NCBI GenBank assembly: GCA_020072815.1
Contig: JAIQGE010000003.1
Location: 1 to 64,000 of the forward strand
Direction of reading: 5' to 3'
DNA: 64,000 bases
Source of the DNA: Terriglobia bacterium
GTDB lineage: Bacteria > Acidobacteriota > Terriglobia > Terriglobales > Acidobacteriaceae
Shown: positions 4,785 to 64,000 of the stretch, piece after piece
How the letters are laid out: the number at the start of each line of letters is the position of its first letter
How positions within the stretch are numbered: position 1 is the stretch's first letter
Program-made: the position numbers and the translations under genes
Notes under the pieces: model-generated
What the model saw: the letters and a program-made list of their open reading frames with translations, nothing else
What the model was told of the DNA's origin: nothing
Database searches by the model: none

Positions 4785-5771
4785 ATGAATATGCGCGCGG
4801 TGCTTTGCAAAGAATGGGGTAGTGAAGAAAAGCTGGTGGTGGAAGAGATCGGCGCTCCAGCCATGCGCGAAGGCGCAGTTCGGCTGGCGGTCCACGCTGC
4901 GGGCGTGAATTTTGCCGACCTGCTGCTCATCGCAGGCCAGTACCAGGAGAAGCCGGCGTTTCCCTTCATTCCCGGAGCCGAGGCCGCGGGCGTGGTGACT
5001 CAAGTCGGCCCGGGCGTCAGCGGAATCAAAGCTGGTGACCGCGTGATGGCGCTCGCGGGGCTAGGCGCCTACGCAGAAGAAGTTGTAGTCGAGGCCGCCA
5101 AGGTCCTGCGCATCCCTGAGGGGATGGATTTTGCCAGCGCCGCGGCGTTTCCGGTGGCTTACGGAACATCGCACGGCGCGCTGGAGTGGCGCGCGCGACT
5201 CCAGCCCGGCGAATGGCTGTTGGTCACCGGCGCGGCGGGGGGCGTGGGCTTGACCGCCGTAGAGATTGGCAAGGCCATGGGCGCCAAGGTGATCGCCTGC
5301 GCTGGGAACGCGGAAAAACTCTCGGTCGCCCAGCAACACGGCGCCGATCACCTGATTGATTATTCAAAAGAAGACATTCGCGAGCGCGTAAAAGCCATCA
5401 CCGGCGGACGCGGCGCGGACGTGATCTACGATCCCGTAGGAGGCGACGCCTTCGACGCCGCGCTGCGTTCCATTGCCTGGGGCGGAAGGATCATCGTCAT
5501 CGGCTTTGCCGCCGGGCGAGTGCCGCAAATTCCCGCCAATATTGTGCTGGTAAAGAATGTTGACGTGATCGGCTTCTACTGGGGTTCTTACCAGAAGCAC
5601 AAGCCGGGGCTGGTGATTTCGTCGTTTGCCCAGCTCTTCCGCTGGTTCGAAGAAGGCAAGATCAAGCCGCATGTATCGCTTCAGTTCGATCTGGAGCACA
5701 CCGCACAGGCGCTGGAAGCGCTGCGGGCGCGGAAGTCCACGGGCAAGGTCGTGATAACGGTGAGATCGTAA
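4785..5771 (+). CDS. NADPH:quinone oxidoreductase family protein
   Basis: This 328-residue MDR protein of the zinc-free Qor type has the N-terminal GroES-like domain with HAAGVNFADLLLIAGQY and FPFIPGAEAAGVV (about residues 38-75). It also has the nucleotide-binding loop TGAAGGVGLTAVEIGKAMGA (about 148-168) and GGRGADVIYDPVGGDAF. No zinc ligands are seen. The reaction is expected to be NADPH-dependent reduction of a quinone or enoyl/acyl substrate in the cytosol. It stands 61 bp after the DUF6265-like gene and 28 bp before the SnoaL-like gene in the same direction, so a short operon is possible. Confidence 0.9.
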   Translation: MNMRAVLCKEWGSEEKLVVEEIGAPAMREGAVRLAVHAAGVNFADLLLIAGQYQEKPAFPFIPGAEAAGVVTQVGPGVSGIKAGDRVMALAGLGAYAEEVVVEAAKVLRIPEGMDFASAAAFPVAYGTSHGALEWRARLQPGEWLLVTGAAGGVGLTAVEIGKAMGAKVIACAGNAEKLSVAQQHGADHLIDYSKEDIRERVKAITGGRGADVIYDPVGGDAFDAALRSIAWGGRIIVIGFAAGRVPQIPANIVLVKNVDVIGFYWGSYQKHKPGLVISSFAQLFRWFEEGKIKPHVSLQFDLEHTAQALEALRARKSTGKVVITVRS

Positions 5772-54117: not shown

Positions 54118-54632
54118 ACGTTCAGCTTAACCAGCGGTTTGGGGATCTGCAAGTCGCGGACGCCGTTGTTCTCGGGAATCTCTCCGCGATACATGGCGAT
54201 TTCGTCGCAAGCGTTGAACGCCGGGCAATGCACGCAGTCTTTGTAAATCTTGTCGGGTAGGTCATCGCGCTTGGCCAGCCCAAATCCCATGTGAGCAAAG
54301 AATTCTGGTATGCGCGTAAACAGGCACACGCACGTGACTTCATGCCGCTCGGCTTCCTTCAGCAGCGCTTCCACCAGCTTCCGTCCCGCGCCCAGGCCCT
54401 TAGCTGAAGGCGTGACGGCGATGGAGCGGATCTCCGCCAGGTGCATTCCGTACAGATGCAGCGCACCGCAGCCGACGATCTTGCCATCCACTTCGGCCAC
54501 CACAAAGTCCCGCACATTTTCGCGCAACTCGGCCAGCGTCCGCGGCAGGAGCGTGCCGTTGCCCGAGTACGTGCGGATGATTGCGTGGATCTGCTCCACG
54601 TCCGGCAGGACGGCGTTACGCGTGCGCAGCAT
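54114..54632 (-). CDS. Short N-acetylglutamate synthase-like GNAT acetyltransferase
   Basis: This 172-residue GNAT protein opens LRTRNAVLPDVEQIHAIIRT. The acetyl-CoA loop is SIAVTPSAKGLGAGRKLVEA (about residues 70-90), and the end has FGLAKRDDLPDKIYKDC, VHCPAFNACDEIAM. The Cys/Asp-rich ending is typical of the acetyltransferase domain of bacterial N-acetylglutamate synthases, including the short form fused to ArgH in some marine bacteria. It should acetylate glutamate to prime the pathway. It overlaps argH by 17 bp and argJ by 4 bp. ATG 54632 is preferred to the longer open frame, whose extra N-terminus runs into the argH C-terminus. Confidence 0.85.
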
Positions 54633-56013
54633 GTGCCTCCTGCAGCGCCGATAATTGCTGCCGCGCGGCGCGCAAAGCCTGTTCGACCTGTCGCGGCGCC
54701 GTGCCACCGGGCACATCATGGCATGCCAGTACGGCGTCGAGTCTTAAATGCTGGTAAATATCTTCGCCAAACGCTGCGCTGAACGCGCGCAGCTCGTCCA
54801 GTGACAGGTCCTGGAGCTCGCAGCGTTTCTCCACGCACTTTTGCACCGCGCCGGCCACAATCTCATGCGCCTGGCGAAACGGCACGCCGCGATGGACCAG
54901 GTACGTGGCTGCGGCCAGCGCGTTCATGAATCCGCTTTCGCAGGCGGCCTGCATGCGCGCGTGGTCGAACTCGACGAGTTTCATGAACCCGGTGGCAATC
55001 TCCACGCAGGCGCCCGCCGTCGCTGCGGCGTCAAACAGCGGCTCCTGTGTTTCCTGCATGTCTTTGTTGTAGGCCAGCGGCAGCCCTTTTACCGCCGTGA
55101 GCAACGCCACCTGGCTGCCGATGATCCTCGCCGACTTCCCCCTGATCAACTCCAGCGCGTCGGGATTTTGTTTCTGCGGCATCGCGCTGCTGCCCGTCGA
55201 GTACGCCTCCGGCAGATGGATGAACCGGTACTCCTGCGTGGCGAAGAGAATCAGCTCTTCCGCCCAGCGGCTCAGGTGCACGCCCAACAGTGCGAGCGCG
55301 TTGACGAACTCAATAATGAAGTCGCGATCGCTCGTCGCGTCCATGCTGTTGGCCGTCGGCCGCTCAAATTCCAACTCACGGCTGGCAATCTTGCGGTCCA
55401 GCGCCAGCGGCGCCCCCGCAATCGCTCCAGACCCCAAGGGACACTCGTTCGCGCGCTTGCGGCAATCTGCCAGGCGGTCCGCGTCCCGCCGGAACATCTC
55501 AAAATACGCCAGCAGCCAATGCGCCACCAGCACCGGCTCCGCGCGTTGCAGATGTGTGTAAGCGGGCATCACCGCGGACTTGTTCTCTTCCGCGCGCGCC
55601 ACCAGCGTTTCAAGGAATTCGCCCAGCCCCGCGCGCAAGTCATCGATGCACTCGCGGACGAACAACCTCAAGTCCGTCGCGATCTGCTCATTACGGCTGC
55701 GCCCGCTGTGCAGCTTCTTGCCCACGTCGCCGATGCGCGCCACCAGTTGCGTCTCCACAAAATGATGGACGTCTTCTGCCCCGGGATCTTTCAGCAGGCC
55801 TTCCTGGCCTTCGAACTCCGTGCCGATCTGCTCCAGCGCCGCGACGATCTGGTTGAAGTCCTCCGCGGTGATCACATCCGCTGCCGCCAGCGTCTTGGCA
55901 TGGGCGCGGCTGGCCGCAAGCTCAAAGCGCAGCAGCTTTTGGTCAAACGGAAATGAGCGCTGCCATTCTTCGAACCTGGGATCAAGCGGTTGCCGGAACC
56001 TGCCCGACCACAT
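54616..56013 (-). CDS. argH: Argininosuccinate lyase
   Basis: This 465-residue fumarase/aspartase-superfamily enzyme splits argininosuccinate into arginine and fumarate. It opens MWSGRFRQPLDPRFEEWQRS. Conserved parts are HSGRSRNEQIATDLRLF (about residues 106-122), YTHLQRAEPVLVAHWLLAYF and the loop GSSAMPQKQNPDALELIRGK (about 278-297). The start ATG 56013 is two bases after the argG stop. The gene's 3' end overlaps the short acetyltransferase gene, an arrangement that recalls ArgH(A) fusions. Confidence 0.96.
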   Translation of the reverse strand: MWSGRFRQPLDPRFEEWQRSFPFDQKLLRFELAASRAHAKTLAAADVITAEDFNQIVAALEQIGTEFEGQEGLLKDPGAEDVHHFVETQLVARIGDVGKKLHSGRSRNEQIATDLRLFVRECIDDLRAGLGEFLETLVARAEENKSAVMPAYTHLQRAEPVLVAHWLLAYFEMFRRDADRLADCRKRANECPLGSGAIAGAPLALDRKIASRELEFERPTANSMDATSDRDFIIEFVNALALLGVHLSRWAEELILFATQEYRFIHLPEAYSTGSSAMPQKQNPDALELIRGKSARIIGSQVALLTAVKGLPLAYNKDMQETQEPLFDAAATAGACVEIATGFMKLVEFDHARMQAACESGFMNALAAATYLVHRGVPFRQAHEIVAGAVQKCVEKRCELQDLSLDELRAFSAAFGEDIYQHLRLDAVLACHDVPGGTAPRQVEQALRAARQQLSALQEAHAAHA

Positions 56014-56015
56014 CT

Positions 56016-57242
56016 TCACTTGGTGATCTCCTGCTTCTGCTCGGTTTTCTGTTTGTGAAGCCGCGCCCGCGACCGCGCCGGCAATCCCAGAATGCGGATG
56101 AACCCCTCCGCGTCCTTCTGGTCGTAGCTCTCGCTCATGGTGAACGACGATAAGTCCGTCCGGTACAGCGAGAACTCTGACTCGCGGCTGCCAATGCTCA
56201 CGTTGCCTTTGTACAGCTTCAGTGTTACCGTGCCCGTGATGTCCTTCTGCGTTTCGGCGACGAACGCATCCAGGGCTTCGCGCAGCGGCGTAAACCACAG
56301 GCCGTAATAGACGAGTTCAGCGTATTTCAAAGCAATTTGCTGCTTGAAGTGCGTGAGTTCGCGCTCCAGGCATAACGCTTCCAGTTCGCGATGCGCTGTC
56401 AGCAGCAGCGTCCCGCCCGGAGTTTCATAACATCCGCGAGACTTGATCCCCACAAAGCGGTTTTCCACCAGATCAACGCGGCCAATCGCGTTGCGTCCGC
56501 CAATTTCGTTCAGCAGTTCCACCAAAGACACCGGCCCCAGCTTTTGCTCGTTCACCGTTATCGGAGTTCCCGCCGCAAAGCCGATGGTCACCGTCTCTTC
56601 GCGATCGGGCGCGTCCTGCGGCGATCTGGTCATCTGCCACGTGCTTTCAAACGGCGCGTTGGCCGGGTCTTCCAGCTCGCCGCCTTCGTGGCTCAGGTGC
56701 CATATGTTGCGGTCGCGACTATGGATCTTCTCGCGGCTGGCGGTGACCTGTATCCCGCGCGCTTCCGCGTAGTCCAGGCAGTCTTCGCGCGATTTCAGCG
56801 TCCACTCGCGCCACGGCGCAATGATCTTCAGCTCCGGCGCCAGCGCCTGGAAGGCATGTTCAAAGCGGACCTGGTCGTTGCCTTTGCCGGTGCAGCCGTG
56901 CGCCAGCGCTGTCGCGTTCTCGCGCAACGCTACTTCCACCTGGTGCTTGGCGATCACCGGCCGCGCCAGTGACGTCCCCAGCAGGTACTTGTGCTCGTAC
57001 ACCGCGCCCGCGCGCAGAGCAGGGAAGACGTAGTCGTTCAGGAACTCTTCGCGCAGGTCTTCCACAACCACTTTCGCCGCGCCGGTCTTGCGCGCTTTTT
57101 CGATGACCGCGTCAAGATCGTCGCCCTGGCCCACGTCGGCGATCATGGCGATCACGTCGCAATGGTAGTTTTCTTTCAGCCAGGGAATAATGATGGAGGT
57201 GTCCAGCCCTCCGGAATATGCCAGGACAACTTTCTCACGCAT
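56016..57242 (-). CDS. argG: Argininosuccinate synthase
   Basis: This 408-residue enzyme joins citrulline and aspartate using ATP. The P-loop is [20 protein letters not shown] at residues 1-20, followed by [13 protein letters not shown]. Substrate-binding stretches are [19 protein letters not shown] (about 115-133) and [20 protein letters not shown]. It overlaps argF by 8 bp upstream and is followed by argH after two bases. The last 20 residues are Lys/Gln-rich and not conserved. Confidence 0.96.
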
Positions 57243-58254
57243 GATTGCTCCTCACGGCAGTCCGGCGGCTCATGCCGCTGCCCAGCAACATTAATAGGAT
57301 GGCTTTCTGCACGTGCATGCGGTTTTCGGCTTGATCGAAAACGATGGACCGCGGCGAATCTATGATCTCCGCTGTCACTTCCTCTCCGCGATGCGCCGGC
57401 AGGCAGTGCATAAAGAATGCGTCCGGCGCGGCCAGGGCGAATAGCTCGGCGTTGACCTGGTACGGAGCAAAAATCTTTTTCCGCTCCGCGGCTTCGGATT
57501 CTTGGCCCATGCTGGCCCACACGTCCGTGTAGATGGCGTTGGCCCCCGTAACCGCCCGCTTCGGATCATTGGTAACGTCAAGAATCGCGCCGGTGGAGCG
57601 CGCGATCGCCTTGGCCGCCGCGACGATGTCTTTATCCGGCTCGTAGCCCTTCGGTGTGGCCACGGCAATGCTTGTTCCCAGCGCGGCCGCAGCCAGCATC
57701 AGCGAGTGCGCCACGTTGTTGCCGTCGCCCACGTAGGCGGTGTGCACCTGGCGCAGGTCGCCAAACTTTTCTTGCAGAGTGAAGAAGTCCGCGTACGCCT
57801 GGCACGGATGCTCCACGTCGCTCAGCGCGTTGATCACGGGGATGCACGTGTTCTCCGCCATCTCCGTGATGGTGGAGTGGGCGTAAGTCCGAAGCACCAC
57901 TGCGTCCACCCAGCGCTCCACGTTGCGCGCGATGTCCCGTACCGGTTCGCGTTCGCCCAGCCGCGAATGCGTCTGATCCACGAACAGTGACGTGCCGCCC
58001 AGGCTGGCCATGCCCGATTCAAACGTCAGCCGCGTGCGCAGCGACGCTTTCTCAAAGAACAGCACCAGCTGCTTCCCCGCCAACGCGCCACGAAAATCCG
58101 CCGGGCGGTGCTTGATGATGTGCGTCAGCTCGAACATCGCCCGGGTTTCTTCCGGGGAAAAATCCTGCGCGGACACCAGATCGCGACAAACCGCCGCCGG
58201 CTGCTCTGCCGGCGCGTTGAACGCGGCGAAGTCGGGAATTCCTGCTGACATCAT
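57235..58254 (-). CDS. argF: Ornithine carbamoyltransferase
   Basis: This 339-residue enzyme makes citrulline from ornithine and carbamoyl phosphate. The carbamoyl-phosphate loop reads [20 protein letters not shown] (about residues 63-82), where the usual S-T-R-T is S-L-R-T. Other signatures are regular: [31 protein letters not shown] (ornithine loop D-x-x-SMG) and [17 protein letters not shown] (HCLP). ATG 58254 overlaps the argD stop (ATGA). An acetyl- or succinyl-ornithine transcarbamylase, which also carries SLRT, should be kept in mind, but the SMG loop and the presence of argJ favour plain ornithine. Confidence 0.92.
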
Positions 58255-59495
58255 GCATGCCTCCGTTGGACCGTGGCCGGCAGCTCCACGGTGTTTTTGC
58301 TCAGTACGTCGTCCAGCAAGCGGACCACCTGGTCCACGTGCTGTTTCTTGATGATGAGCGGCGGCAGAAGCCGGATCACCGTCTCGTCCGTGCGATTTAC
58401 GATCACACCGCGGTCCAGCATCTGCTTGAAAACATTCTTCGCCAGATCGGCTGACTCCAGCTCCACTCCCGCCATCAGCCCCATGCCTCGCACTTCGCGG
58501 ACGGCGGAATGCGACTTCTGCAGCTCGCGGAGTTGTTCCAGCAAATATCCGCCGGTCTTCTGGATATGCTTCAGCAACTTCTGCCGTTCGATGGTATGCA
58601 ATACTTCCAGAGCGACGGCGCAGGCCAGCGGCCCTCCCCCAAAGGTGGTCCCATGCATTCCCGGATGAATGCATTGTGAGACTTTCTCGCTGGCCAACAG
58701 CGCGCCCAGTGGCAAGCCGCCCGCTATCGGCTTGGCCACCGTAACCATGTCCGGCATTATGTCGAAACCCTGATAAGCGAACCAGCGTCCCGTGCGTCCC
58801 AGGCCGCTCTGGATCTCATCGGCAATCAGCAGCGCGCCGTGCTTGGTAGCCAGCTCGCGCGCCTTCTCAGCAAACTTCTGGCTCACCGGACGCACGCCGC
58901 CCTCCCCCTGCACAAACTCAAAACCAATCGCGCAGACCGTCGAGTCGAATTTCTTCTCCAGATCGGCCACGTCGTTGAAGCGGACAAACTCCACACCCGG
59001 GACGCCCGGCGCAAACGGTGCGCGATATTTTTCCTTGTGCGTGGTCGCCAGCGCGCCAAACGTCCGCCCGTGGAAAGCATGTTCCAGGGCCAGAATGCGC
59101 CACTTCGGCTCTGCGCCTTGAGCGCAGTGCTCCTTGGCGTACGCCCGCGCGAATTTCAACGCGCCTTCCCAGGCTTCCGTGCCGCTGTTGGTAAAAAACG
59201 CCCGGTCCAAACCGGAAATCTTGGTGAGCGCTGCCGCCAGCTTGCCCTGGTACTCGGTATAAAAAAGATTGGAGGTATGGACCAGGAGCTTCGACTGCCG
59301 CGCGATCGTCTTGGTGATCGCCGGATGCGCGTACCCCAGCGCGTTCACACCAATGCCACTGAGAAAGTCCAGGTACTTGCGGCCCTTGTGGTCGTACACG
59401 TGCACACCGCGGCCTTTGCGCAAAAGTACGGGATAGCGCTCATAAGTTGGGACCAGCAACTTGTCTTCGAGTTTCTTTACCTGCTCCAGGTTCAC
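58251..59495 (-). CDS. argD: Acetylornithine aminotransferase
   Basis: This 414-residue class III PLP aminotransferase converts N-acetylglutamate semialdehyde to N-acetylornithine, with glutamate as donor. It has GIGVNALGYAHPAITKTIAR (about residues 46-65), FFTNSGTEAWEGALKFARAY, the FHGRTFGALATT loop and the PLP-lysine stretch DEIQSGLGRTGRWFAYQ, then MVTVAKPIAGGLPLGALLAS (Lys about 255). The start is GTG 59495, overlapping argB by 4 bp (GTGA). Bacterial ArgD enzymes often also act as DapC for lysine. Confidence 0.95.
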   Translation of the reverse strand: MNLEQVKKLEDKLLVPTYERYPVLLRKGRGVHVYDHKGRKYLDFLSGIGVNALGYAHPAITKTIARQSKLLVHTSNLFYTEYQGKLAAALTKISGLDRAFFTNSGTEAWEGALKFARAYAKEHCAQGAEPKWRILALEHAFHGRTFGALATTHKEKYRAPFAPGVPGVEFVRFNDVADLEKKFDSTVCAIGFEFVQGEGGVRPVSQKFAEKARELATKHGALLIADEIQSGLGRTGRWFAYQGFDIMPDMVTVAKPIAGGLPLGALLASEKVSQCIHPGMHGTTFGGGPLACAVALEVLHTIERQKLLKHIQKTGGYLLEQLRELQKSHSAVREVRGMGLMAGVELESADLAKNVFKQMLDRGVIVNRTDETVIRLLPPLIIKKQHVDQVVRLLDDVLSKNTVELPATVQRRHA

Positions 59496-60274
59496 GCGAC
59501 CAGCACCTCCGTTCCGGAATCAATCTTGGCGAAGTAGAAATCAGGCAGCATTTCCACTTCCGCTGCCGGCAGAATGCGCACGCGATTCACGCCGTGCAGC
59601 AGAGCGTTCTTGCAGGCGTCAATCTTGGGCAGCATGCCGCCCTGGATCACGGACTTCTCCGTCAGCTCGGCGGCCAGGTTCAGGTTGAGCCAGCGAATCA
59701 CCAGCCCGTCCGCGTCCTTGACTCCGGGGACATCGGTAAGAAAGATCAGCGCGTCAGCCTGGCAGGCCACGGCGCACGCGGACGCCATCTGGTCGGCGTT
59801 CACGTTGTAATACTGGCCGTCATTGCCCAGCGCCACGCTGGAAATCACCGGCACGCAGCCTTGCTGCCAGATGGCATGGATCCACCGCGGATCGGCCGCG
59901 GAAATTTCGCCCACGAATCCCAGATCGTGCCCGTTGGCCGGCTTCTTGCGCGCGCGGAAGGCCATCCCGTCGCCGCCGCACATGCCCACGGCCGATTGTC
60001 CGGCCCCGGCCAGCGACGCCACCAGTTTCTTGTTCATGTGCCCGGCCAGCACCATCACCGCAAAGTCCCGCGTCTCGGCGTCCGTCACGCGCAGTCCGTC
60101 AATAAATTCGCTGGTCTTGCCAATCTGGTTCAGCACGCGCGTCAGGGCTGAGCCGCCGCCGTGGACCACGGCCACTTGATGCTCGTCGGCCAGTTGCTTC
60201 ACCGCCAGCGTCGCCCGCTGCAGCAGCTCGGCGTTTTCCAAAGTCGCGCCACCCAGCTTCACTACAATCTTCAT
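59492..60274 (-). CDS. argB: Acetylglutamate kinase
   Basis: This 260-residue amino-acid kinase phosphorylates N-acetylglutamate. It opens MKIVVKLGGATLENAELLQR, then VAVVHGGGSALTRVLNQIGK (about residues 35-54) and GLRVTDAETRDFAVMVLAGH. The final third has IFLTDVPGVKDADGLVIRWL. ATG 60274 overlaps the argC stop by 4 bp. The length is on the short side, without the N-terminal helix that gives hexameric, arginine-inhibited forms. Feedback by arginine may therefore rest on the ArgR system or the acetyltransferase step instead. Confidence 0.94.
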   Translation of the reverse strand: MKIVVKLGGATLENAELLQRATLAVKQLADEHQVAVVHGGGSALTRVLNQIGKTSEFIDGLRVTDAETRDFAVMVLAGHMNKKLVASLAGAGQSAVGMCGGDGMAFRARKKPANGHDLGFVGEISAADPRWIHAIWQQGCVPVISSVALGNDGQYYNVNADQMASACAVACQADALIFLTDVPGVKDADGLVIRWLNLNLAAELTEKSVIQGGMLPKIDACKNALLHGVNRVRILPAAEVEMLPDFYFAKIDSGTEVLVA

Positions 60275-61332
60275 TTCAGCCCCTCCTCTTCGTTCCATCC
60301 GTACATCAGGTTCATGTTTTGCACTGCCTGTCCGGCAGCGCCTTTCAGCAGGTTGTCCAGACACGAGACCATCACCAGGCGTCGTCGGTCAGGGGCCAGC
60401 TGGAACCCGATATCGCAGTAGTTGCTGTGCAGCGAATACTGGATCTGCGGCAGCTTGCCGTGGGCGAAGATGCGCACCCAGGGCGAGCCGAAATAAAAGT
60501 TGCGCAGGCAGTCTTCAATGTCCTGCGGTTGCGCCGCCACGTTCAGCCGCGCGTAAATGGTGGAAAGAATCCCGCGCGGAATCGGCAACAGGTGCGGCGT
60601 AAAGATCAACTGCTCGGTGGTCAGTCCCAGTTGCTCCAGCATCTCGCCGGTATGCCGGTGGTTGAACACCGAATAGGCGGAGAGGTTCTCCGCCACTTCC
60701 ACAAAGTGCGTCTTCTGCGTGGGCTGCTTGCCCGCGCCGGAAACGCCGGACTTGGAATCGGCGACAATCCCGTGCGCCAGGTCAATCAGCCCGGCACGCA
60801 CCAGCGGCGCCAGCGCCAGAATGATGGACGTCGCGTAGCAACCGGCGTTGGCGACCAGCGCAGCGTCCTTCAACTGTGCGCGATGCAGCTCGGGAATCCC
60901 GTACACCGCCTGCGCGGTGAGTTTTTCCGCCAGCGCGGGATCGGCGTCTTCAAATTGGTAGATGGCCCGTGACGCCGGGCACGCCAGCCGCCACGCGCCG
61001 CTCAAGTCAATCACCTGCACGCCCTGGCACATGGCTTCCGGCACCCACTCGCGCGATACCTCATGCGGCGTCGCCAGAAACAGCACGTTCACGCCTTGCG
61101 CGCGCAGCTTTTCCCAGTTAAATGTCTGCAGAGGTAAGCCGCCGTTGCCGTTGCTTTGCGGATGAATGATCTGCGGATACACGTCAGCCAGCTGTGCCGG
61201 ACCCGCACCTTCGCTTTCGCGCGTGAAGAGCACAGGCTTCTTCATCCGCGGATGGCGGTAAAGCAGGCGCGCGAGCTCAAAGCCCGCGTAGCCGGTTGCC
61301 CCGACGACGGCAGGTTGTATGGATTGGGCCAT
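60271..61332 (-). CDS. argC: N-acetyl-gamma-glutamyl-phosphate reductase
   Basis: This 353-residue NADPH-dependent enzyme opens MAQSIQPAVVGATGYAGFEL, with a GATGYAG dinucleotide loop. The catalytic cysteine is in LVANAGCYATSIILALAP (about residues 155-172), and the histidine region has FTPHLLPIPRGILSTIYARL. It reduces acetylglutamyl phosphate to the semialdehyde. Its ATG shares one base with the argR stop, so it is translationally coupled to the repressor gene. It is the first biosynthetic gene of the operon. Confidence 0.95.
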   Translation of the reverse strand: MAQSIQPAVVGATGYAGFELARLLYRHPRMKKPVLFTRESEGAGPAQLADVYPQIIHPQSNGNGGLPLQTFNWEKLRAQGVNVLFLATPHEVSREWVPEAMCQGVQVIDLSGAWRLACPASRAIYQFEDADPALAEKLTAQAVYGIPELHRAQLKDAALVANAGCYATSIILALAPLVRAGLIDLAHGIVADSKSGVSGAGKQPTQKTHFVEVAENLSAYSVFNHRHTGEMLEQLGLTTEQLIFTPHLLPIPRGILSTIYARLNVAAQPQDIEDCLRNFYFGSPWVRIFAHGKLPQIQYSLHSNYCDIGFQLAPDRRRLVMVSCLDNLLKGAAGQAVQNMNLMYGWNEEEGLK

Positions 61333-61772
61333 CAGGCTCGCATGCCCTCCAGCCGGTTCTGCATCTCCCTGGCCTTTTTGTTGTTGCCGGTAATGATCAG
61401 GATGGTGTCGTCGCCGGCGACGGTGCCCACCACTTCGTCCCAGCCTTCCGCGTCAATGGCCACGGCCACCGGCTGCGCGCTGCCGGGAATGGTCTTGATG
61501 ACCAGCAGGTTCTGCGCCCGCCGTATCTCGCGCACAAACTCCCGCACCACACGCGAAACCGCTGGCAGCGGCTCGCCTGAAGCGTCGCCGTTGGGCAGGA
61601 TGTAGCCTTCCGGCGTCTTGACCAGGCGCAACTCGTTCAGGTCGCGCGAGAGCGTGGCCTGCGTCACCTGAAACCCGCGGCGCGACAATACCTTCACCAG
61701 CTCCTGCTGGTTGGGGAGAGGCGCTTCCTGCGCGAGTTCCACGATCGTCTGTTGCCGGGCCAGCTTGCTCAT
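61332..61772 (-). CDS. argR: Arginine repressor
   Basis: This 146-residue ArgR protein has an N-terminal winged helix (LPNQQELVKVLSRRGFQVTQ, then ATLSRDLNELRLV, about residues 20-50). The C-terminal hexamerisation and arginine-binding domain carries VIKTIPGSAQPVAVAIDAEG and VGTVAGDDTILII (about 90-130). The head position in the operon with ARG boxes right at the start codon implies autoregulation and control of all nine genes by arginine. Confidence 0.96.
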   Translation of the reverse strand: MSKLARQQTIVELAQEAPLPNQQELVKVLSRRGFQVTQATLSRDLNELRLVKTPEGYILPNGDASGEPLPAVSRVVREFVREIRRAQNLLVIKTIPGSAQPVAVAIDAEGWDEVVGTVAGDDTILIITGNNKKAREMQNRLEGMRA

Positions 61773-62879: not shown

Positions 62880-64000
62880 CTACTTCACCAGCGCATCCAA
62901 CCGCCTCTCTGTCTGCTCATGCAAGTCCGGTGGCGCGCCGTAGAACACGCTCGCCGTCTTGCCTGATCGATCAAACAGGAACATGGTCGGCACCGACGTG
63001 ATGTCGCCGAAAGCCAGCGCTGTCGGCGCGTCGGTGATGGCCCAATGCAGATCAGGACTGAGCGACGCGACCGTCTCTTTGATCTTGTCCTCCGGCGACT
63101 CCACCGCCAGCGCGACGATCGCGATGTTGTCTCCATATTTCTGTTTGAGTTGGCCCAGCCACTCCAGGGTTGAGCGGCACGGCGGGCACCACGTGGCCCA
63201 GAATTCCACCATCACCACGCGTCCGGAAAGCTGTTCCGCTGTGAGCGGCTGGCCGTTCAGATCAGTCAGCGTGAACTTGGGCAACGACGCAATCTGCGTC
63301 AGGTCCGCGCTGGTCGCCGCGTGTTCCCGGCTGACAATATCCTTTCTCCCGGCCAGAATGAGATCAATCATGCGCGAGAGGTCCGCTTTGAATTTGGCCT
63401 GGCTCTCGGCCTTGCGCCACGGAGCATAACGTCCGGTGCCTTCTTTTTCGCCGAAGTAGCCAAACTCGCGCGGGGCCGCCACCAGCACGTCGTCCACGAA
63501 CACCGCCGGATATCCCTTCACGCCAAAGCGGTCGGCTAGCTTGGACCCGCCAAAATTCTCGCTGACAAACGTCACGCGTCCCGGATACTTGGCGGCAACT
63601 TCCTGTACCAGCAAACTTGCTGGGTCTGAGATATTTCAAGTGTAGGGCCAGCGCACCAGCGTGACGTCCACCGTCTTGCCGGACGCGCGATGCAGCGGCC
63701 CCGCCGGCTTGAGCGCCGCGTAATACGCCGGCAGCACCTGCTCCACGATGACCTGCGCGCTGCGCAACTCGTCCGCGCTGGGCGCCGAGCCGTCGGTGTG
63801 GGCGATCTGGGACTGCGCTCGTTCAATAAAGATCTGGGCGATGGAATCATCGCGCCTGGAAGCCGCCAGCTTCTTCTGCTCAACGGCAATGGCATTTTTC
63901 ACCCGGACCTGCTTGGCCGCATCGAGCGCAGCGGCATCCAGCATTCCGTAATGCCGCGTGGCTTCCAGATACACGTAGAGCGCGCCGGCATAGGCTTTGC
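62880..64000 (-). CDS. Double thioredoxin-fold protein, candidate selenoprotein (partial, in-frame TGA)
   Basis: The frame runs from the window end (N-terminus outside) down to 62880, interrupted by one TGA at 63636-63638. On both sides the residues read as one protein. Before it is helical sequence, then VDVTLVRWPYT. The TGA follows, and after it come NISDPASLLVQEVAAKYPGR and VKGYPAVFVDD, a thioredoxin fold with cis-proline. The TGA is 43 residues before that proline, near the 44 between the first active-site Cys and cis-Pro of thioredoxin, giving U-x-x-S. A second TlpA-like domain has FWATWCPPCRSTLEWLGQLK. A 6-bp stem with loop AGTT follows the TGA. If TGA is a true stop, the gene is split and the downstream part (62880-63614) might be a separate protein. 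Confidence 0.75.
63608..63638 (-). promoter_or_regulatory. Candidate bacterial SECIS element with UGA codon
   Basis: On the minus strand, TGA (63638-63636) is followed by 12 nt, then CCAGCA-AGTT-TGCTGG (63623-63608), a perfect 6-bp stem. The loop starts 19 nt after the TGA and has G in its first two bases, followed by T. These are features described for bacterial SECIS elements read by SelB. The hairpin is inside the coding frame. Confidence 0.6.

Follow-up and report, generated by a model that had tools for sequence, protein, structure and literature searches.

A probable selenoprotein family of Acidobacteriota that joins a thioredoxin-fold selenocysteine domain to a CxxC redoxin domain

A gene on the minus strand of the 64,000-nt stretch of DNA analysed here (the window) appears to encode a selenoprotein, with selenocysteine (Sec) inserted at the in-frame UGA at 63638-63636. 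We infer this from comparison of sequences and put its probability at about 0.95. The frame, 638 codons long, opens at contig position 64796 and is closed by a TAG at 62882-62880, and the TGA is its sole interruption; the earlier note on this DNA, which described one frame open on both sides of a single TGA, was right in this. The probable start, judged by eye, is a TTG at contig position 64751, outside the window; a GGAG ends 5 nt before it, and translation from this codon would give a product of about 623 residues. By eye, the N-terminus with its hydrophobic stretch after the TTG is signal-peptide-like, and the selenoprotein is probably exported. The features of the gene are collected in Table 1.

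Table 1. Positions of the selenoprotein gene and its parts within the 64,000-nt window
Feature	Position	Strand	Remark
Selenoprotein gene, 3' part	62880..64000	-	frame runs on outside the window to a probable TTG at contig position 64751
In-frame TGA, probably read as selenocysteine; UNIS, an instance of the UxxS motif	63636..63638	-	TGA in 21/21 distinct members
Putative SECIS hairpin CCAGCA-AGUU-UGCUGG	63608..63623	-	18 nt between UGA and loop; model as given in the available text of PMC13188914
Sec-containing thioredoxin-fold domain, 125 residues, Sec at 15, conserved Pro at 58	63306..63680	-	21-row alignment
C-terminal redoxin/TlpA-ResA-like domain	62925..63287	-	Pfam Redoxin PF08534, 51.7 bits, cut-off 26.6 (window's protein only)
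CPPC dithiol, only Cys of the Sec and redoxin half	63177..63188	-	CxxC alone there in 21/21
End of N-terminal helical region (about 300 residues, mostly outside the window)	63681..64000	-	separate upstream gene in 5/21

At the level of the genus, 3 of 9 genomes (the source genome included) have a relative with TGA at the same site; the figures are 6 of 300 for the family, 6 of 397 for the order and 15 of 396 for the phylum, the last spread over 14 of 210 genera; the four genome samples overlap. A scan of genome contigs with patterns from the N-terminal region returned five loci in MAGs labelled Terriglobia or Acidobacteria, one of which (L061) was new, and L059, L060, L062 and L063, where the sequence around the site is the same as at loci already in the set, were not recounted. 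The family as assembled has 21 distinct members, apparently all from Acidobacteriota, in 17 labelled genera and one unlabelled MAG. The earlier note had proposed that homologues be examined for Cys codons or TGA at this column. It is clear that the column is uniform: all 21 have TGA there, even where the Sec domain is only 48% identical, neither a Cys codon nor TAA or TAG occurs, and the UxxS motif is likewise present in 21/21. The TGA was located by a pattern that includes the hairpin core, and this pattern matched all 21 loci obtained from the protein search, with none dropped. When the Sec domain by itself was the query, the same 15 of the 396 phylum genomes were recovered, all with TGA. 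The invariant residues cluster around Sec (T14, U15, S18, D19, P20, A21, L23 and L24 in the numbering of the 21-row Sec-domain alignment).

A Cys form of the Sec domain was not found in the 396 phylum genomes (E <= 0.001), a plasmid collection of 72,556 records gave no match to the domain, and 14 pattern matches in viral contigs included no relative of it. The absence of a Cys form holds for the genomes sampled; beyond the phylum the Sec-domain search covered plasmid and viral records only, and the scan of genome contigs, which used N-terminal-region patterns, says little on distant Cys relatives of the Sec domain. One copy (L109, on contig C48 of genome G543) comes from a genome outside the window's class; it is 82% identical in the Sec domain and is nested on the tree among copies of the window's family, which would reflect either horizontal transfer or a misbinned contig of 14 kb. 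Just upstream of the family member in G675 there are short head-to-tail repeats (aggacgaat-like; L118:7720-7800).

Selection was compared on the two sides of the TGA in seven pairwise comparisons with the window gene. The dN/dS ratio is 0.13-0.22 before the TGA (297-300 codons) and 0.05-0.11 after it (251 codons), values that are rough because dS is about 1 or more in these pairs. On these ratios purifying selection acts on both parts of the gene, and the downstream part is selected as coding sequence.

The earlier note had also pointed to a 6-bp hairpin with the loop AGTT shortly after the TGA, and this is indeed found at 63623-63608; its stem begins after 12 nt and its loop after 18 nt, the first loop base being the 19th. 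In the hairpin, CCAGCA-AGTT-TGCTGG, the four-nucleotide loop has G second, followed by U. The bSECIS model, as set out in the available text of PMC13188914, has a stem of 4-16 bp, a loop of 3-9 nt with G in the first two loop positions, a distance of 16-37 nt from the UGA and an MFE at or below -7.5; compared by hand, the hairpin agrees with the four constraints of the published model. The 18-nt hairpin alone folds at -8.9 kcal/mol (z -3.70, 0/200 shuffles as good), and in a 40-nt context the value is -9.0 kcal/mol (z -1.54, 15/200 shuffles as good). Over 71 kb of the source genome, counting any frame and both strands, a loose SECIS-like hairpin follows 392 of 2049 TGAs, and the strict form follows 2 of the 2049, the window's one being included by construction. 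With the context z at -1.54 and loose hairpins after 19% of nearby TGAs, the hairpin as sole proof of Sec was rejected. The hairpins that follow the TGAs of two other in-frame-TGA genes of the same genome are unremarkable (z -0.24 and -0.77). What lifts the evidence from the hairpin above chance is that the TGA and the hairpin core are kept in 21/21 members, together with the purifying selection described above.

The codons used within the hairpin tell in the same direction. Its Ala is encoded by GCA in 21/21 members, a codon that makes up 9% of Ala codons in the flanks of the same genes; its Ser is AGT in 16/16 (7% in the flanks) and its Leu is TTG in all 16 of these Ser forms (6% of Leu codons in the flanks). 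Codon-by-codon counts show that codons rare in the flanks and common to the members are confined to the hairpin. The next Leu after the hairpin Leu is CTG in 21/21 (45% in the flanks), and common codons can be uniform, or nearly so, outside the hairpin too, as with Arg -5 (CGC in 19/21) and Lys 35 (AAG in 8/8).

Five of the 21 members are Gly forms, in which AGT TTG is replaced by GGT CTG and the loop AGUU by GGUC; the Leu change is synonymous in 5/5. Loop positions 1 and 4 change together in these five, from A/U to G/C, and complementarity is kept. We read this as covariation of loop positions rather than as an ordinary stem pair, since such a pair would enclose only two bases. Double-changed cells number five, a figure reached by 0/500 shuffles, and relatedness can produce such a count. 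Two further measures do not favour structure, as 4/7 pairs never vary across the members: pairs changed on both sides number one, which 382/500 shuffles reach, and the number of further pair types is reached by 500/500. Cells are paired in 98.6% of cases, against at most 50% when the pairing is slid, and the outermost stem pair is lost in 2/21 members. The five GGUC sequences group weakly on the tree (80/85), and the change from AGUU to GGUC may have been one event. The apical GCA-GGUC-UGC of these five members, with about 18 nt from UGA to loop, resembles the SECIS element of E. coli fdhF; that element has a bulged U, whereas the window's hairpin is a plain 6-bp stem.

The source genome (5.3 Mb in 32 contigs, the window being on contig C3) carries the apparatus that Sec insertion would need. 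The earlier note had suggested a search for it, and all four components are present: a tRNA-Sec (73.9 bits, anticodon tca, ARAGORN), SelB (389 bits, cut-off 242), SelA (551 bits) and SelD (382 bits). The selD gene (G000:C8:77253-78182, L106) has an in-frame TGA of its own, in KAAGUASK, and SelD itself is probably a selenoprotein in this genome. A 425-codon redoxin-like frame (G000:C19:127402-127593, L050) has another, at locus position 5501 in WASWUGC; it resembles the known WAxxUGC/UGC-TlpA selenoproteins, and the same query gave TGA-bearing matches of similar frame length in genomes G002, G004 and G007. The WASWUGC frame suggests that the genome has more than one selenoprotein. From the tRNA-Sec, SelA, SelB, SelD and the further in-frame TGAs, it is very probable that this genome decodes UGA as Sec. 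SelB is over the cut-off in 15/15 family-positive genomes of the phylum sample and in 238/381 family-negative ones (hypergeometric P = 0.001, phylogeny ignored), a comparison that covers 15 of the 21 family-positive genomes. The family gene is absent from 381 of the 396 phylum genomes, 238 of these with SelB, and is thus dispensable for most.

Together, the TGA in 21/21 members, the conserved hairpin and the Sec machinery support the earlier proposal that the UGA is read as selenocysteine, and other readings of the codon have to be set against this evidence. TGAs seen in a single genome are often errors, and most of the family-positive genomes are drafts in many contigs, which would suit a sequencing error, a frameshift or a pseudogene; the same TGA nevertheless recurs in 21/21 members from 17 labelled genera and one unlabelled MAG, and these separate assemblies refute such a reading. 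The strong purifying selection after the TGA also speaks against it, and we consider it extremely improbable. It could instead be that the UGA is an ordinary stop and that a second protein is made by re-initiation at the TTG that begins with the 22nd base after the UGA. A TTG-initiated ORF of 244 codons does start there, and the helical part is a separate gene in 5/21 members. In those five split genes, however, the break lies upstream of the Sec domain and not at the UGA, and the re-initiation TTG is CTG in 5/21 members. The residues between the UGA and the TTG are moreover conserved (Ser 3, Asp 4, Pro 5 and Ala 6 in 21/21), at a plain stop one would expect to see TAA and TAG as well as TGA, and a thioredoxin domain begun at that TTG would, judging from the model, be without its first strand and its active-site loop. 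This makes a stop with re-initiation improbable.

Coding selection after the TGA does not tell which residue enters at the codon, and readthrough of the UGA might insert a different residue, for instance Trp through suppression. The conserved SECIS-type hairpin, spaced as a SECIS should be, and the full Sec machinery nevertheless argue for Sec, and the position fits that of the nucleophile in thioredoxin, the conserved Pro being at +43; readthrough with a residue other than Sec is therefore, in our view, very improbable.

The AlphaFold2 model of the Sec domain has a mean pLDDT of 82.9 (under 50 at residues 15-18, the Sec loop) and the thioredoxin-like order of strands and helices, with a Pro 43 residues past the nucleophile. 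This is the conserved Pro of VKGYP, for which the same distance had been noted earlier. The structure most similar to the modelled domain is that of a designed thioredoxin (Z 9.3 over 83 residues); other thioredoxins come next, and then a selenoprotein W-related fold at Z 7.8. Foldseek gave no match to the Sec domain at E <= 0.001, its top rows being mostly thioredoxins or thioredoxin fusions, and by sequence the best E in the PDB was 0.0069, again with thioredoxins leading. The window's Sec domain matched no Pfam or NCBIfam model at E 0.1; the 21 Sec domains together gave weak stray matches, the best at E 0.032 in NCBIfam and 0.0087 in Pfam, and thioredoxin PF00085 is not among the two Pfam families matched by any of the 21.

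The C-terminal domain also matches the ResA and TlpA models, below their cut-offs. Its CxxC is present in 21/21 members, as CPPC in 19, CVPC in one and CGPC in one, and the two Cys of this motif are the only ones from 14 residues before Sec to the C-terminus in every member. A Cys further upstream recurs 176-181 residues before Sec in 9/21 members and is absent from the window's member; given this residue, another thiol may matter in some members. The earlier description of a two-domain U/CxxC protein stands as far as the Sec thioredoxin-like and CxxC domains are concerned, but the protein has three regions, a helical one of about 300 residues preceding the Sec domain. The full-length model, in which this N-terminal part is helical, is poor (mean pLDDT 62.8), and no Pfam family is over its cut-off for the helical region in the two separate versions examined. 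Five of the 21 members (G426, G425, G679, G465 and G762) encode the helical part in a gene of its own, which lies directly upstream in the same orientation; in G425 the split shows as two matches in different frames. Stop and start codons of the two genes overlap in three of the five (G426, G465 and G762), and the Sec protein of the split members begins, by eye, with its own signal-like peptide. Genes that are fused in some genomes and split in others usually encode proteins that act jointly.

The explanation that we find best overall, and in which we have high confidence, is that of a probably exported redox protein of three regions with SelB-decoded Sec and, as its most likely mechanism, a relay between Sec and CxxC. 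SelB and Sec-tRNA-Sec would decode the UGA at 63638-63636, directed by the hairpin at 63623-63608, to give a product with, in order, the helical region, the thioredoxin-fold domain with Sec in UxxS and the TlpA/ResA-like CxxC domain. The Sec selenolate would act on a substrate outside the cytoplasm, and the oxidised Sec would be resolved by the CxxC of the neighbouring domain; an outside thiol reductant would then recharge the CxxC, or the same relay might serve oxidation instead. Docking of the substrate, or of a partner, is probably the role of the helical region. As no resolving thiol is available in UxxS, the neighbouring CxxC is the natural resolver, and since this CxxC holds the sole Cys of the C-terminal half in 21/21 members, an intramolecular electron relay between CxxC and Sec appears to be the simplest and likeliest mechanism, at somewhat better than even odds. 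Alternatively, Sec may be inserted but the domains may be independent, or a peroxidatic Sec may be reduced by an external thiol and not by the CxxC domain. UxxS resembles one-thiol active sites, no usable model puts the two domains in contact, and there are further Cys in the helical region of some members, all of which would suit this alternative; the CxxC domain, however, shares a polypeptide with the Sec domain in 21/21 members and has the sole thiols of that half. We regard independent domains or an external thiol as possible, at odds below even. The relay can also be given a narrower form, that of an obligate Sec family without a Cys form, in which an exported relay of two thioredoxin folds has the CxxC domain recharging a Sec domain that is without any resolving thiol; this we propose tentatively, at a little under even odds. 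If the relay is true, the family would offer a natural setting in which to study why Cys does not take the place of Sec.

Known thioredoxin-fold bacterial selenoproteins, as they appear in the available text of PMC13188914 (Table 1 there), resemble the present family in having Sec at the nucleophile position and a bSECIS element right after the UGA. The UxxS entries seen in that 2026 inventory of 119 families are rhodanese form 1, arsenate reductase and a cd02970 peroxiredoxin-like family, and among the inventory entries examined none joins a UxxS thioredoxin domain to a CxxC redoxin domain (PMC13188914). The thiol-disulfide oxidoreductases of the TlpA/ResA family, NCBIfam NF041054 (WAxxUGC_long) among them, are similar in the C-terminal Redoxin/TlpA/ResA domain; they differ in that here Sec is in a separate, preceding domain and the TlpA-like domain keeps its CxxC. 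Against NF041054 the protein scores 33.7 bits with a cut-off of 300, which places it outside that model's family. The TIGR02187 family (protein disulfide oxidoreductase) has tandem thioredoxin folds. Selenoproteins of this type, also named 'homolog of AhpF N-terminal domain', have weak similarity to the Sec domain (E 0.042; 4/21 members, best 0.052), but the score is 13.2 bits against a cut-off of 185, the motif here is UxxS and not UxxC, and there is the extra helical region. No description of the family was found in the literature on Acidobacteria/Acidobacteriota selenoproteins, new selenoprotein families, NCBIfam recoding and the motif strings, GenBank protein records being outside this scope. 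We call it a new thioredoxin-fold selenoprotein family with its own architecture; an annotated GenBank entry may exist.

Sec-Cys pairs with Cys homologues are the usual criterion by which selenoproteins are discovered, and such a search would miss the present family, for which 21 Sec members and no Cys member were found. This suggests that the prokaryotic selenoproteome is undercounted. In the literature on selenoproteins stated to be without Cys homologues, one paper was found, on platyhelminths, and the authors of deep-Sep say, in the available text, that their method may not identify selenoproteins without Cys relatives (PMC12013277). Acidobacteriota, where SelB is over the cut-off in 253 of the 396 sampled genomes, gain with this family a further selenoprotein that is probably exported.

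Genes for a sigma factor and an RskA-type anti-sigma factor lie directly upstream of the selenoprotein gene on the same strand, just beyond the window (G000:C3:64897-66800). A similar pair is upstream in G003, and an anti-sigma-like frame in G004 (by eye); Pfam was run on the G003 sigma factor and the G000 anti-sigma factor only, the rest being judged by eye. In the other 17 of 20 loci no such pair was seen directly upstream (judged by eye on the N-terminal 75 residues of each ORF; G216 lies outside this set). The neighbourhood was set aside as a guide to function, and no function was drawn from it. Elsewhere in the window, at 54616-61772 on the minus strand, a run of ORFs resembles, by eye, an arginine biosynthesis cluster (argR, argC, argB, argD, argF, argG and argH-like).
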